Part shown: one piece after another, positions 13,538 to 19,839 of the stretch
Layout of the letters: each line of letters opens with the position of its first letter
How positions within the stretch are numbered: position 1 is the first letter of the stretch
NCBI GenBank assembly: GCA_002701385.1
Contig: NZVD01000087.1
Location: forward strand, 1 to 64,000
Reading direction: 5' to 3'
Source: Rhodopirellula sp.
GTDB lineage: Bacteria; Planctomycetota; Planctomycetia; Pirellulales; Pirellulaceae
DNA: 64,000 bases
The notes under the pieces: generated by a model
What the model saw: the letters and a program-made list of their open reading frames with translations, nothing else
The model's database searches: none
Told to the model about the DNA's origin: nothing
Program-made: the position numbers and the translations under genes

Positions 13538-13735
13538 GCTGATTGGTTGTATCGGACCTGAAGTTACTGTCAAATAAAGTTTGACGATTAAAGCACCTTT
13601 TGTCAGCTGGTAAGAATCAATTTACTGTTATGAATTCCTTAATTCGGTAGGGGTTCTTGTAATTGGCCCAGAGTGTGCTATTTTCACTTCAGAGCTTTAG
13701 TTTTAGGTTTTCTCAGAATAAACGGAGATTCATCC

Positions 13736-14233
13736 ATGTCGATGTATGTCGGTGAAGCACTCGTTGGCGATGGCAACGAAATTGCACATATTGATTTGTT
13801 AATTGGTAGTAAAGATGGCCCTGTAGGCGATGCATTTGCAAATGCTTTGGCTCGTCAAAGTGAAGGTCACAATAACTTGCTTGCTGTTTTAGAGCCAAAT
13901 TTGGCTGTAAAACCAAGTACCGTAATGATTACTAAGGTAACAATCAAAGGTATGAAGCAAGCAGTTCAAATGTTTGGTCCAGCTCAGGCTGCTGTTGCTG
14001 AAGCTGTGGCAGATGCTGTGAAGGAAGGCGCGATCGCTGCTGATCAAGCAGAAGATTTGGTTATCGTATGTGGAGTCTTTATCCACCCGGCAGCTGAAAG
14101 TGATGAATTGATCTATAAGTACAACTACGAAGCGACTTTGCAGGCGATTCGCAATGCAATGACCGGAGATCCTTCTGTTCAGAAGATGCTCGATGGACGT
14201 GATGGCGCTGCTCACCCGTTTAAGGGATGCTAG
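13736..14233 (+). CDS. fae: Formaldehyde-activating enzyme
   Basis: Fae condenses formaldehyde with tetrahydromethanopterin to give methylene-H4MPT, the entry step of H4MPT-linked formaldehyde oxidation and detoxification in the cytoplasm. The protein is 165 aa, the usual Fae length, and matches the family throughout: YVGEALVGDGNEIAHIDLLIGSK with the conserved His (residue 18), then DAFANALARQSEGHNNLLAVLEPNLAVKPSTV, MFGPAQAAVAEAVADAV and a closing AAHPFKG. An open frame extends upstream to 13673, but CGGAGA at 13723-13728 fits ATG 13736. A strong terminator follows at 14291, so fae is probably a single-gene transcript. The dehydrogenase for the next step is 230 bases downstream. Confidence 0.95.
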   Translation: MSMYVGEALVGDGNEIAHIDLLIGSKDGPVGDAFANALARQSEGHNNLLAVLEPNLAVKPSTVMITKVTIKGMKQAVQMFGPAQAAVAEAVADAVKEGAIAADQAEDLVIVCGVFIHPAAESDELIYKYNYEATLQAIRNAMTGDPSVQKMLDGRDGAAHPFKGC

Positions 14234-15364: not shown

Positions 15365-16561
15365 ATGAATTTACTTACATTTCAATGTCCGGTGTGTGAC
15401 GGTGTTTTCCGAGCAGACGATTCTGCGACGGAGGTGGCCTGCCCACATTGCCATGAAATCATTGAATTGATTGGTGACGAAACGGGCTCCCAGCAGAGTC
15501 AAACAACGACTGCATCACAAGTCGAAATGACGGTTACACGTAATGCAACTCTCTCTCCATTGTTGCCTCCGGGATTTCGGAAGAAGACAAAGTCCAGGGA
15601 ACCAGCCCAGAAAGCAAACGATCCTGAAGAGATTCCGCTGGCTCCACCTGTGCTCCCTGCTGTGGAGCCGGGAATTGATGAGCTTGAGATAGTAAACGAG
15701 CTACCAGCTTCCAGTGCTGTAGAAGACATGAATGCCCCTGTTCCTCCATCTGAGCCAGTTTCGCAGTCCCTTGTTGTCGAGGACTCAAGCGTTGCTGAAG
15801 CACCGTTTTCGGGGATATCTGAATCTCAGCCGGACGCGATGGATACATTGCCAGAAATCTATGATCACAACGAGGCAGTTGATCCAAATCTTAACGAGAA
15901 TGTGACTACAGTCTCTGAATTAGATACTCTAGTCGAATTTGTAGCAGATATTTTAGATGACGAATCTGAGGCGTCATTGACGGATGAGTCTGCGGGCTTT
16001 GAAAATGCTGTGTTTCCTGTTGACGTAGAGAGTTTAGTTGAAACGTTAGCTGAGCCTTCTGAGCTGAGTGTAGTTAGTAGTGCACAGACAGACACCAGTG
16101 AAGAGGATGTTATTGGCGAGGAATCTGCTGAGAAATCAGATCTGGAAAGCCCCGAACCTCCCGATGAACGCGACAAGCAAAATGGCGGTTCGCCTGCTGG
16201 CGTCGAACCGGACTTGGAACTGCCTGAAGATCTCTTAGGCGACTTAGACGACCCATCGGATAGTGATTTACTACCACCTTCAATCGATGGAATGTCCGTA
16301 TTGCCTCAGAAGCCTGTTGGTCTACCGACTCCGGTAATTGATACCGGTGAGATTCTGTCGCAATCTCAGGTAGAAGAACCGAGTGTTACGATTAGAGTCG
16401 AAGAAAATATTCAGACGGTAGGTTATGGAAACAATAAAATTGAGTTGCTCAGTCGTACATCAGACGAAAAGGAACAATTCAAAAAGAACAAGAACATTAT
16501 GGTGTGGGTGATAGGTGCACTGATGATCGTATTGACGATGATCATAATGTTGAACTTGTAA
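15365..16561 (+). CDS. Zinc-ribbon, acidic, tail-anchored hypothetical protein
   Basis: No known function. The N-terminus is a short zinc ribbon (FQCPVCDGVFRADDSA then VACPHCHEIIEL, with Cys pairs near residues 8/11 and 26/29), of the MJ0042-like type common in planctomycete membrane proteins. About 300 residues of strongly acidic, Ser/Pro/Glu-rich sequence follow and are probably disordered. The C-terminus is a single membrane span (IMVWVIGALMIVLTMIIMLNL) with basic residues just before it, so the protein should be tail-anchored with the ribbon in the cytoplasm. It starts 33 bases after the methylene-H4MPT dehydrogenase and may share its transcript, but nothing in the sequence links it to C1 metabolism. 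It converges on the BamA-like barrel gene with 1 base between stops. Confidence 0.65.
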   Translation: MNLLTFQCPVCDGVFRADDSATEVACPHCHEIIELIGDETGSQQSQTTTASQVEMTVTRNATLSPLLPPGFRKKTKSREPAQKANDPEEIPLAPPVLPAVEPGIDELEIVNELPASSAVEDMNAPVPPSEPVSQSLVVEDSSVAEAPFSGISESQPDAMDTLPEIYDHNEAVDPNLNENVTTVSELDTLVEFVADILDDESEASLTDESAGFENAVFPVDVESLVETLAEPSELSVVSSAQTDTSEEDVIGEESAEKSDLESPEPPDERDKQNGGSPAGVEPDLELPEDLLGDLDDPSDSDLLPPSIDGMSVLPQKPVGLPTPVIDTGEILSQSQVEEPSVTIRVEENIQTVGYGNNKIELLSRTSDEKEQFKKNKNIMVWVIGALMIVLTMIIMLNL

Positions 16562-16562
16562 T

Positions 16563-18158
16563 TTAGCCGCGACTGAATCCCATATAGAAACTAAACACTT
16601 GCTTGTCATCGGTGTCAGCATGGTGGATTGGGAATCCAAAATCGAGGGCAAACGGCGCTTGGGACATAAATGGCATGGAGATTCTTAGTCCTGCCCCCAC
16701 GACTACGCGGAAGTTTTCCGCATGAACGCTGTAGTCCTGCTCGACTGTTCCAAAGTCTGTGAAGACTACACCTTTAAGCATATCGTCGGCTGTGAAGGGA
16801 AACAGATACTGCAACGTGCCTAGGAAGCGTTGGTGTCCACCAACACGTACTCCATTTTCTTCGGGGGAAGCTCCACGGAATTCAAACCCACGCATTGTCG
16901 AATATCCACCGGCAAAATAGTGGTCATATAGCGGAGTGTCCTCGCCGGTGATGTCATACTGTAGTCGCCATGAGAATGTGTGTCGTCCAGAGCCATCCGC
17001 ACGTTCACGTATCAGATAATATTTGCGGTATTCAATACTTCCCCGGGGGTAAACATAATCCCCGAGAACTTGTTCGAAGGATGTGTTGAAGTAATACCCT
17101 TCCGTCGCAAGAAATGGGGTATCGCGGGTGTCATGACTGAGTCCGACTTTGAGACCAACGAGATCGTTGTGTCCCAGGGCATCATCCAAATCGGCAACCC
17201 CTGTGATAGAGGGATCTGTGAGCTTAATTCGTTCCAAACGGGCACTTAAATTGACGCTTAAGTCAGGGTTTAAGCGATAGCCAAATCCGAATCGACCTCC
17301 AGCTCGTTTTTCATCCCAGTCGCGATAAATTCGGTCATACATAAATGCGCTGGTGTTCAGGCTTACCTTCGTATCCCGAAAGTAAGGGTCCGAGTATTGC
17401 AGCATGTATCTTTCCCAGAATTCACCAGGCATAGCTTCGAGGCGAAATCCTTGGCCTCCACCTCGGAATGCCCGTCCCTCTGCAAAATCTTCCCAGCTAT
17501 CAGGTACAGCATGATAATCGAAGTTTCGTTCATCGATTACGATTTGTCCTGTTACACCGGCATCGGAATTGACGCCCACGCCGAACATGAAACGGCCGGT
17601 TCGGCCCTCTTCCACGTAAACGTCGAAGGGAATTGAATTCATGGCGGCATTAGGATCAAAAAGCGGTCTTACCGAGTTGTCATTTGGGGCAAGTTCCTCT
17701 TCGGCTTGAGCTAATTGCAACTGGTCATCGACACGTAAGACTTTGGAAGGATTGGATAGTTCAACGAAGTCCGCGTTGGTGACGGGACTTTGACCCCGGA
17801 TAATAGTGGCATCAGGGGCCGGAGTGTGAAGAGCAGAGTCGTCAAATTGTGGGATGAGGGATTCGTCGGGGGTTGTTTGCAATTCTACGGCAGCTTGCCT
17901 CGTCGTTTTGCTTTCGTTTGCGGGGGTACTCGTCTGAGGCTGAGATACCTCTCGTCTGTCTTCCGAGGCGTTGCTGACAACTGAACGCTGAGCATCTGAT
18001 TCGGTTAGTTGCTTGAGGGTTCGCTGTTTGCCCGAGATCTGTTCAACTGCAGTTGGATTGGGCGCCAAATTGGATGTACAACCAGTTAGCACACCGGCAA
18101 GCGTGAAGCTGACCAGAGCAAGCATTGTTTTAGAATTACGTAGTATTTGAAAGGTCAT
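16563..18158 (-). CDS. BamA-type outer-membrane beta-barrel carried on a lipoprotein
   Basis: The C-terminal 345 residues look like a complete BamA/Omp85 16-strand barrel. They open with GRTGRFMFGVGVNSDAGVTG (about residue 186), contain the loop-6 motif GGYSTMRGFEFRG (about residue 420), and end in ALDFGFPI...FSFYMGFSRG. No POTRA domain is present. Instead the N-terminus is a lipoprotein signal with lipobox LTGC (Cys27) and a long Ser/Thr/Pro-rich linker. An open frame runs up to 18344, but ATG 18158 is chosen because it begins exactly at the lipoprotein signal and lies 4 bases after the stop of the five-POTRA gene. I infer that the two products together replace a one-chain BamA, inserting outer-membrane proteins. 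The product is 531 aa. A TamA-like or other Omp85 role is the alternative. Confidence 0.8.
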   Translation of the reverse strand: MTFQILRNSKTMLALVSFTLAGVLTGCTSNLAPNPTAVEQISGKQRTLKQLTESDAQRSVVSNASEDRREVSQPQTSTPANESKTTRQAAVELQTTPDESLIPQFDDSALHTPAPDATIIRGQSPVTNADFVELSNPSKVLRVDDQLQLAQAEEELAPNDNSVRPLFDPNAAMNSIPFDVYVEEGRTGRFMFGVGVNSDAGVTGQIVIDERNFDYHAVPDSWEDFAEGRAFRGGGQGFRLEAMPGEFWERYMLQYSDPYFRDTKVSLNTSAFMYDRIYRDWDEKRAGGRFGFGYRLNPDLSVNLSARLERIKLTDPSITGVADLDDALGHNDLVGLKVGLSHDTRDTPFLATEGYYFNTSFEQVLGDYVYPRGSIEYRKYYLIRERADGSGRHTFSWRLQYDITGEDTPLYDHYFAGGYSTMRGFEFRGASPEENGVRVGGHQRFLGTLQYLFPFTADDMLKGVVFTDFGTVEQDYSVHAENFRVVVGAGLRISMPFMSQAPFALDFGFPIHHADTDDKQVFSFYMGFSRG

Positions 18159-18162
18159 TGCG

Positions 18163-19839
18163 TTATCGGTTGGTAATCCATGTTGCAGGTTTTGGCGGGA
18201 GCTGAAATGCGGAGGTGCGATCGACTTGCTGGATATTTGGTCGTTCCGGACTCTGACCTCGGATCGAACCCGTTGTTGGTCCGGTAGCGGCCTTTGGGTT
18301 AGGAGCTGGTGGCAGCCCGGAATCTTCCGGACTATTCGTCTCAATTTCTTCAGTGCGTACGACGATGGTTGGGGGCGACCCCATCATGGCTCCATCGTTA
18401 AACAAAGAGCTGTGTCGCAAACGCCGTTCACTTGAACGCATTTCCTGATTACTGGCCAGATCACCGGGGATAAGTGAGAGTCTGTTTAAGACGACTGAAT
18501 TTTTAGTGTGTGGTGCAATTCCTGAAATGTGGACAGCGATTTCCCCCACTTTGAATTGTTCGCCTTCGTCGACAGAAAAGACCAACTCCAATTCTCCGGG
18601 CGTCTCCTGAAAGCGGATGTCGGTAGTGATGGTTGAGTAGATATATCCGAGTTTCCCGTAGATTTCCCGCAGAGCGTCGAGGTCTTCATTTAGCTGGCCA
18701 CGTAGAAAGTAGTCTCCGGACCGAGTGGAGATAAGTTGGTTGAGTGACTCGGAGGAGACGTGCTGATTTCCTTCGACTCGCATCGCTGTGATACGGTAAC
18801 GCGGCCCTTCATTTACGATGAACCGGAGTGTGACCCAATGCCCTGATTCGTCATAGTCGATCTGGCGGCCAACGGTCGCCTGGAAGTACCCTAGGTTTCT
18901 GTAGTAGGCAACAAGTTTCTCCATATCGCTTTCCACACGAGTTGGAATATAGTCGCCGCCAATGATCCAGTTGGTCAATTTAGCTTTGGATTCGAATAGT
19001 GTCAGGAGTCTGGCATCCTGTGCGAGATGAGGGTTATTGCCAACCACTTGAATAGCGGCGATCTTTTCTCTCGGGCCTTCATTTACGTAGAACACCACAT
19101 TTCGTTCACCAGGCTGAAGTCCTTCCAGTACCGACACGTGAGCTTTGGGGAATCCGTGTTCGTGATACAATTCCTCAATTTTCCGTTTCGCATCTTCGAT
19201 GGAGAACAGATCCAGAGCATCTCCAGCTTTGAGGTCTGTCTCTTTGGTTAGTTTCTTGTCCAAGTACATGCGATTGCCGATGTAGCGAACGGTCGCAATC
19301 GTGGGGCGTTCAAAGAGTTCAAACGTAAGGTGCAGCCCGAGATTGGATTGTTTGATTAGCAAACGCACGTCGCGGATAAGTCCCGTGCCGTATAAGGATC
19401 GCACATCCTCCTGAATCACGGTTGCATCGAACGATCGGTCAATTCGAGTCTTAATCGTACCGTAAAGTCGCTCGCCGGTGAGGAATTGATTTCCTTTGAA
19501 TTCGATAGAGGCAACAGGAAGGCCGTGATACTGCAGGTGCTTTTTCTCTTCTTCTTTTTGCAGTTCGTCTACCGTTTTAGGGGAACTGTCCTGAGCAGGA
19601 CCACGAGTACCTGGTGTACCTGGTTGTCGATTTAGGCTTTGTGTACGAGGGGGGCGTCCTGTATTGGGGAATATTCCACTTGCTTGTTGCACTTGTCCGG
19701 TCGATCCAGGGCGGAATGCAGCATTACCAATAAGAGGTTGCTGAGCCAGCAGAGTGGGGCACAGGAACAGGCACATCAGGCAGGTTCCAAGACGCTGCAG
19801 ATAAGATTCATTCATTCGAGGATGGCGCTTATTTGTCAT
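18163..19839 (-). CDS. Five-POTRA exported protein (BamA N-terminal part)
   Basis: A signal peptide (hydrophobic LGTCLMCLFLCPTLLA, cleavage before QQPL) and a Pro/Gly-rich linker precede five consecutive POTRA repeats: about 108-178 (PVASIEFKGNQFL), 179-257 (ATVRYIGNRMYL), 258-345 (AAIQVVGNN), 346-425 (TAMRVEGNQHV) and 426-497 (VGEIAVHISGI). Five is the number in proteobacterial BamA, where the barrel follows POTRA5 in the same chain. Here the protein ends with a Pro-rich tail and a stop at 18163, and a separate lipoprotein barrel gene starts 4 bases later. POTRA domains sit in the periplasm and receive unfolded outer-membrane proteins. The start may be 19839 or Met9 (19815); both keep the signal peptide. 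It heads the two-gene operon. Confidence 0.85.
   Translation of the reverse strand: MTNKRHPRMNESYLQRLGTCLMCLFLCPTLLAQQPLIGNAAFRPGSTGQVQQASGIFPNTGRPPRTQSLNRQPGTPGTRGPAQDSSPKTVDELQKEEEKKHLQYHGLPVASIEFKGNQFLTGERLYGTIKTRIDRSFDATVIQEDVRSLYGTGLIRDVRLLIKQSNLGLHLTFELFERPTIATVRYIGNRMYLDKKLTKETDLKAGDALDLFSIEDAKRKIEELYHEHGFPKAHVSVLEGLQPGERNVVFYVNEGPREKIAAIQVVGNNPHLAQDARLLTLFESKAKLTNWIIGGDYIPTRVESDMEKLVAYYRNLGYFQATVGRQIDYDESGHWVTLRFIVNEGPRYRITAMRVEGNQHVSSESLNQLISTRSGDYFLRGQLNEDLDALREIYGKLGYIYSTITTDIRFQETPGELELVFSVDEGEQFKVGEIAVHISGIAPHTKNSVVLNRLSLIPGDLASNQEMRSSERRLRHSSLFNDGAMMGSPPTIVVRTEEIETNSPEDSGLPPAPNPKAATGPTTGSIRGQSPERPNIQQVDRTSAFQLPPKPATWITNR

Follow-up and report, generated by a model that had tools for sequence, protein, structure and literature searches.

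In the stretch of DNA analysed here (the window: 64,000 nt, positions 1 to 64,000 of contig NZVD01000087.1 in the Rhodopirellula sp. assembly GCA_002701385.1), BamA is encoded by two adjacent genes. The upstream, POTRA-chain gene (18163..19839, minus strand) encodes a protein of 558 aa with four complete POTRA domains and a fifth (POTRA5) that lacks its last strand. The downstream, barrel-chain gene (16563..18158, minus strand) encodes a protein of 531 aa, and the missing strand sits on this product, ahead of the Omp85 barrel. The cut lies in the β2-β3 turn of POTRA5, not between domains, and a split BamA that is cut inside POTRA5 is a new form of BamA. We consider it likely that the two products make up a two-protein BamA, in which the barrel-chain strand completes POTRA5 in trans and restores the canonical insertase.

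The two genes and the cut in POTRA5

An earlier note, made from the sequence of the window alone, had described two open reading frames (ORFs) separated by 4 bases. They are present as described, with the POTRA-chain stop codon (TAA) at 18165-18163 and the barrel-chain ATG at 18158. The barrel frame stays open upstream of its own ATG, in an ORF that runs from 18344. Pfam POTRA matches five stretches of the upstream product (E 5.6e-47), and Pfam Omp85 (PF01103) matches residues 231-528 of the downstream product (E 1.9e-46), which has no Pfam POTRA match at E≤1. The barrel (16566..17606, minus strand) contains the loop-6 MRGF motif (within 16872-16901) that the earlier note had pointed out. The BamA model TIGR03303 is covered from position 3 to 372 by the POTRA chain and from 423 to 739 by the barrel chain, with a weak extra stretch at 384-423. 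When the barrel chain was compared by sequence with the PDB, TamA was the best match (6.3e-8), followed by BamA (9.9e-7).

The POTRA chain begins with a Sec signal and a disordered N-terminal region. The limits of the complete domains were taken from the elements of an AlphaFold2 (AF2) model of this chain, and are residues 108-177 (POTRA1, 19309..19518), 183-253 (POTRA2, 19081..19293), 259-343 (POTRA3, 18811..19065) and 349-424 (POTRA4, 18568..18795), all on the minus strand. POTRA5 without its last strand (18358..18549, minus strand, residues 431-494) ends with the β2 segment PPTIVV and is followed by a disordered tail. The fifth Pfam POTRA match spans model positions 6-49 of 79, whereas the other four span 76 to 79 positions. 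In contiguous planctomycete BamAs, β2 of POTRA5 is followed by a short turn, then by β3 and then directly by barrel strand 1, as in L184 (ptvtv-LDPESDSEFKDILVQV-eedrtgsllvgmginsdag). Aligned to these proteins, the POTRA-chain domain of the window ends with PTIVV, and the barrel chain picks up with IPFDVYVEEGRTGRFMFGVGVNSDAG. Both this alignment and the strand pattern identify IPFDVYVEE (17607..17633, minus strand) as POTRA5 β3. The earlier note had stated that the upstream gene carries five POTRA domains and then stops, and that the barrel gene has none. The first statement needs correcting to four complete domains and an incomplete POTRA5, and the second is correct apart from the last POTRA5 strand, which is on the barrel chain.

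The barrel-chain product begins MTFQILRNSKTMLALVSFTLAGVLTGC, by eye a lipoprotein signal peptide (18078..18158, minus strand), and the LTGC lipobox given in the earlier note is at 18089-18078. Cys27 would be the lipidated residue. A low-complexity, fast-evolving tether (17643..18077, minus strand) leads from the putative lipid anchor to the last POTRA5 strand, and approximately 175 residues of the barrel chain lie ahead of this strand and the barrel.

Modelled with AF2, the window POTRA chain aligned with full-length Escherichia coli BamA over about residues 24 to 406-409 and no further; 3og5_A and 4c4v_A reach 421-422 by pairing an earlier window POTRA with POTRA5. We take E. coli POTRA5 to end near residue 421, and the end of the VDVVYKVKER segment at this residue is consistent with that. 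Against the POTRA4-5 crystal structure 3q6b, 142 residues aligned at 2.3 Å, up to residue 407. In the model of the chain alone, the strands of POTRA1-4 are formed, POTRA5 consists of two helices with no strand of ≥3 residues, and the predicted local distance difference test score (pLDDT) is under 50 almost throughout the tail (499-558). The simplest reading of this model is that POTRA5 of the window chain is a sheet without its middle strand, the missing strand presumably having a central position.

Structure prediction, which the earlier note had proposed for each product, was run for the POTRA chain itself, and the barrel was covered through L118, a fused relative; the window barrel is known from sequence. 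The AF2 model of L118 has a pLDDT of 81.6 and a predicted template modelling score of 0.69. Its POTRA5 strands are 332-342, 394-397 and 567-577 (EAIPFDIYVDE). A disordered linker, seen as low-confidence segments between 406 and 552, lies ahead of the third of these strands, and a barrel of 16 strands (581-922) follows it. L118 residue 580 corresponds to E. coli residue 423, and barrel-only BamA crystal chains that start at 423-426 align from 580-583. The best structural match of the model is a full-length BamA, 8pzv_A (Z 27.7, 693 residues aligned, root-mean-square deviation (rmsd) 10.3). In the same structural comparison, PDB entries 9h85 and 9h89 bear the title 'BAM-hinge'.

Positions -8, -6, -4 and -2 of the barrel-chain β3 are hydrophobic in 86, 90, 91 and 92 %, respectively, of 77 split sequences, and the 20 tether positions from -30 to -11 in 19-52 %. 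Compared with five of seven congeners (G001, G002, G005, G006 and G008), the nine β3 codons show zero nonsynonymous change, and the nonsynonymous divergence (dN) of the tether is 0.07-0.47, above that of the cores. Synonymous sites are saturated in most congener comparisons other than that with G006, for which synonymous divergence (dS) is 0.35 and dN 0.016 in the POTRA core, and dS is 0.44 and dN 0.013 in the barrel. The POTRA and barrel cores are both under purifying selection.

Distribution, origin and genomic context

Searches covered 60 relatives, 36 from the family of the window and 23 from other families of the order. In the window's family, BamA is split in all 35 genomes with a match (four of these have one part truncated at the end of a contig) and in eight further genomes drawn later. 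The 36th genome, G004, is 69 % complete and gave no barrel. Among the 23 genomes from other families, 17 have one chain with a long linker, five are split (G038, G039, G044, G057 and G058) and one, G040, has no convincing match. The one-chain proteins are the fused form that the earlier note had suggested seeking in related genomes. With the profile of the window's family, no BamA barrel was found in G040 (99 % complete) or G228 (94 % complete), and G040, G228 and G004, the genomes that gave no barrel, are tentatively taken as assembly gaps, although loss or divergence may instead account for G040 and G228. A mixture of fused and split forms within the window's genus was considered and rejected; pairs in the same frame had a stop codon between them, and all are split.

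A scan anchored on the barrel gave 497 confirmed loci. The best 80 of these, which are biased to close kin and include some of the same records as the genomes above, comprise 40 split loci, 33 one-chain loci and seven where the contig starts inside the barrel frame. Titles of the split-locus records include Pirellula, Rhodopirellula and Roseimaritima, and in one case Blastopirellula (L107). This suggests that the split family is Pirellulaceae, but record titles conflict, as loci titled Blastopirellula marina (L120 and L141) and Pirellulaceae (L172) are one-chain.

The gap between the POTRA and barrel profiles sorts BamA into three states, namely contiguous (16-51 residues), linker-bearing (115-450 residues) and split. 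The 17 contiguous sequences represent other branches of the class and phylum, and are chosen examples rather than a census. The linker is also present in the members sampled from two further families of the class, f21 (8 sequences) and f73 (4 sequences). A tree of 155 sequences (17 contiguous, 61 linker and 77 split) was built quickly under LG+G4, and has long branches among the outgroup sequences and many weak forks. In it, 70 split sequences form one clade (Shimodaira-Hasegawa-like approximate likelihood ratio test support 100), and the remaining seven are scattered over four other positions. Five changes are needed to explain the split label on the tree, at least two of them being forced by well-supported branches, and no re-fusion is seen on the tree inside the 70-sequence clade. 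As the four f73 linker sequences (L194, L195, L196 and L212) group with contiguous ones, the f73 linker may be independent or misplaced.

Because most of the sampled sister families are linker-bearing and contiguous BamA is found further out, the long linker appears to have come first and to have been cut later, probably once for the 70-sequence clade and apparently four more times. A long disordered insert would have arisen in the β2-β3 turn of POTRA5, and the gene would then have been cut within this insert and a new signal peptide added. Genome G058 contains two split BamA pairs (L091 and L092), in both of which the barrel chain has a plain signal; on the tree, they mark an independent origin of the split.

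The window genome is a draft of 100 contigs that is 99.19 % complete. Profile searches of it revealed no second Omp85 barrel or POTRA protein beyond this locus, with one match to PF01103 (E≤0.001) and three to TIGR03303 (E≤1), all at this locus, and five to PF07244 (E≤1), all in the POTRA-chain gene. The earlier note had raised the prospect of another bamA acting as the main copy, and these searches found none. The split pair is the cell's only detected BamA and the sole detected Omp85 candidate for the main insertase. TIGR03303 likewise detects nothing besides the split pair at E≤0.01 in G018 and G026, two relatives assembled as a single contig. One extra weak match is present in each of two others, G013 (E 2.0e-4) and G035 (E 1.0e-4), and some draft relatives (e.g. 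G011, G020 and G027) have weak extra matches on other contigs, the best with E 9.2e-7. A BamD-like tetratricopeptide repeat (TPR) protein with a lipobox (L174, G000:C33:29554-30048) matches TIGR03302 with E 3.0e-18 and 67.2 bits (cut-off 81.4). TamB (PF04357) gave no match in the window genome at E≤0.01.

The gene at 15365-16561 (plus strand) is convergent with the barrel-chain gene and ends 2 bases from it. Its product starts like a CxxC zinc ribbon and has a hydrophobic segment at the C-terminus, and its family matches are weak. Also near the pair, at 13673-14233, is a gene for a formaldehyde-activating enzyme (TIGR03126, E 2.6e-74), which we take to be a tetrahydromethanopterin-pathway gene.

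Proposed joining of the two halves

The position of the cut, within POTRA5, hints at the way in which the halves come together. We infer association of the two chains, completion of POTRA5 by the strand and BamA function of the assembly. Given its plain signal peptide, the POTRA chain would be a soluble periplasmic protein, and given its lipoprotein signal, the barrel chain would have a lipid-anchored N-terminus. The flexible tether would run from the anchor to the missing strand, which would continue directly into barrel strand 1 and slot into POTRA5 in trans, in the manner of donor-strand complementation.

Using a permissive pattern placed after a hydrophobic stretch, a lipobox-like site was found on the barrel chain in 67 of the 77 distinct split pairs (counting L166, which is borderline). 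In a separate count of 42 loci, the lipobox was found in 37 by pattern and in two more by eye. None of the 67 has Asp after the Cys; by the E. coli rule, Asp at this place is not expected in lipoproteins sorted to the outer membrane. Most POTRA chains have a plain signal, and six of 77 were flagged as lipobox-like by script, L135 and L162 being judged the clearest. Judged by these patterns, the lipid anchor would be common in split pairs but not universal, and dispensable for the arrangement. The lipid-anchored barrel put forward in the earlier note is thus predicted for the window and for most pairs, but not for all.

Several observations weigh against completion in trans or against parts of it. 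Ten of the 77 pairs (L052, L091, L092, L138, L167, L173, L201, L203, L204 and L207) have plain-looking signals with no lipobox, and hence lipidation is not essential to the design. The two halves score 223.2 and 162.4 bits with TIGR03303, both under the curated cut-off of 297.15. Only 6 % of the 17 contiguous sequences have a hydrophobic residue at position -8, in contrast to the split and linker sequences, so the strand begins in a non-canonical way. Relative to G003 and G007 the strand has changed, with dN of 0.10 (tether dN 0.61-0.71). The barrel-only chain 6fsu_A (start residue 412) aligned from L118 residue 338, in the first POTRA5 strand, and not from 567, and for this reason the aligner leaves the place of the last strand unconfirmed. 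The structural basis is a model of a fused relative together with a model of the isolated POTRA chain, the two having been folded with different alignments. The BamD-like TPR profile is unspecific, with 32 matches in the window genome and matches in 13 of 14 control genomes. Finally, by a permissive motif, a strand-like segment follows RGQSPD in the POTRA-chain tail in 21 of the 77 split sequences (5.6 expected by shuffling), and might complete POTRA5 in cis.

RGQSP motifs are present in the window in the POTRA-chain tail (18247..18261, minus strand) and in the N-terminal region of the barrel chain (17784..17798, minus strand). Of the 77 split pairs, 44 carry the pattern R[GAMS]Q[SN]P in the POTRA tail and 25 in the barrel N-terminal region, where shuffling predicts 0.23 and 0.36, respectively. 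Among the 49 one-chain linkers from the order, 38 contain the pattern (0.21 expected), 28 of these in at least two copies. It was found in three of 12 linkers from the two other families and in none of 17 contiguous forms. RGQSP is preceded by a hydrophobic residue, and D or E is often next. From this distribution, the POTRA tail and the barrel tether appear to derive from a single ancestral linker, one half each, and the motif may be a candidate binding or processing site. RGQSP was also considered as a genome-wide docking motif and rejected, as the pattern, with CGN arginine codons only, gave 19 matches in the window genome against 14 in the control, and no partner emerged. Among the 11 of these 19 loci whose codons read RGQSP, the motif lies in a frame of >100 residues only in the two BamA chains, L234 (a 524-residue open frame with a signal-like N-terminus) and L238 (dioxygenase-like, named by eye).

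The most serious alternative is that the chains associate but POTRA5 is completed in cis by the strand in the POTRA tail. The barrel-side strand would then be a duplicate with another role, and the halves would be joined through other contacts, for example RGQSP segments or BamD-like partners. LDIDVYV-like segments after RGQSPD do exceed expectation in several split lineages, a permissive strand-like motif is present in 32 of 61 linker sequences (12.3 expected by shuffling), and tails and linkers show strong enrichment of RGQSP-type motifs. However, the window's own tail has no strand-like motif and is predicted to be disordered, and the barrel-side strand is kept across the split sequences. 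Moreover, L118 has both segments, and AF2 leaves the one in the linker disordered and forms the barrel-side strand. We regard cis completion as unlikely. In L110, L058, L045 and others, the LDIDVYV-type tail segment resembles a duplicate of the last POTRA5 strand.

It is less probable again, and in our view improbable, that the halves act apart, the POTRA chain as a periplasmic chaperone and the lipidated barrel as an insertase without POTRA, with the strand a remnant. The two separate signal peptides would fit this, as would the Omp85 barrels lacking an N-terminal extension, which are a described group in the available part of PMC4104836. Yet the POTRA gene is upstream in 73 of the 80 barrel loci (the other seven are those where the contig starts inside the barrel frame), the strand is kept while the adjoining tether diverges, and profile searches of the window genome found no other Omp85 protein for the joined role.

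Frameshifting or stop codon read-through could join the frames into a one-chain BamA, as the open barrel frame upstream of the ATG and the fused relatives might suggest. This is very improbable. The offset of the barrel frame takes all three values in the 77 split pairs (1 in 30, 2 in 28 and 0 in 19), so there is no common slippage geometry, and 67 of the 77 have a lipobox-like signal where the joined protein would have linker. A sequencing or assembly error, the frameshift that the earlier note had warned of, can be given hardly any weight even though the window is from a draft in 100 contigs, as the same split, with frame shifts of 0, 1 or 2 and its own signal peptide on the barrel chain, was found in all 35 matching genomes of the family and in eight more, including single-contig genomes.

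Known systems and significance

Completion in trans would give a BamA close to the known plan. The pair has in common with diderm BamA, such as that of E. coli (TIGR03303; e.g. PDB 5d0o), the five POTRA domains, the 16-strand barrel, as counted in the L118 model, and the loop-6 RGF, but the five POTRA domains that define BamA are found only across both chains. Unlike BamA, the window pair is two chains, with POTRA5 cut between strands 2 and 3 and with a separate lipoprotein signal and a long tether on the barrel chain. The linker BamAs of the sister families of the order and of two other families of the class have a low-complexity insert at the same POTRA5 turn, with RGQSP-type motifs in most of the order's linkers, but unlike the window pair they are still one chain. 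Mitochondrial Sam50 has one POTRA beside the barrel, on one chain; the L118 model aligned with it (9nk6_B) over 329-914 (377 residues, rmsd 5.6, Z 25.5). In chaperone-usher pili, a strand of one chain completes the sheet of another (donor-strand complementation). The likeness to the window pair is an analogy only, as fold and purpose are unrelated.

The 'Lipo' group of Omp85 proteins presumably corresponds to TamL, its NCBIfam name. According to the part of PMC4104836 available, this group, from Bacteroidetes and Chlorobi, has an N-terminal lipid on an Omp85 protein, as predicted for the window barrel chain, but there the lipid precedes three POTRA on the same chain, whereas the window lipid chain has no complete POTRA. 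The 'noNterm' Omp85 proteins of the same source resemble the window barrel chain in lacking a complete N-terminal domain, but the window has POTRA domains in the adjacent gene, and its barrel chain keeps the last POTRA5 strand and an extension of ~175 residues. Among the rows listed in Table 1 of PMC3422733 there is one BamA accession per planctomycete genome, and in the portion of its text available neither POTRA nor 'split' occurs. The available text of a 2026 review of BAM (PMC13067283) does not contain 'planctomyc'. Among the matches listed from the open-licence PubMed Central literature, preprints excluded, this split of BamA is not described in the titles and abstract openings.

Split BamA genes may be overlooked or misnamed by automatic annotation, as the score of either window half is under the BamA cut-off. 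A more tentative idea, unlikely in our judgement, is that the strand-exchange joint is reversible, with lipid-anchored barrels idle until a soluble POTRA chain docks, which would make insertion switchable. If so, the two chains would draw in a common partner through their RGQSP-type segments, and BamA would be a regulated two-part machine, not one fixed chain.

BamA has been treated as a one-chain protein, and here a whole family appears to have cut it while keeping the severed strand on the membrane half. With contiguous, linker-bearing and split forms, an evolutionary series is available. The POTRA unit and the barrel form a two-component system whose parts could be purified, mixed and exchanged, and the family provides a natural experiment on how much the covalent joint between POTRA and barrel matters.

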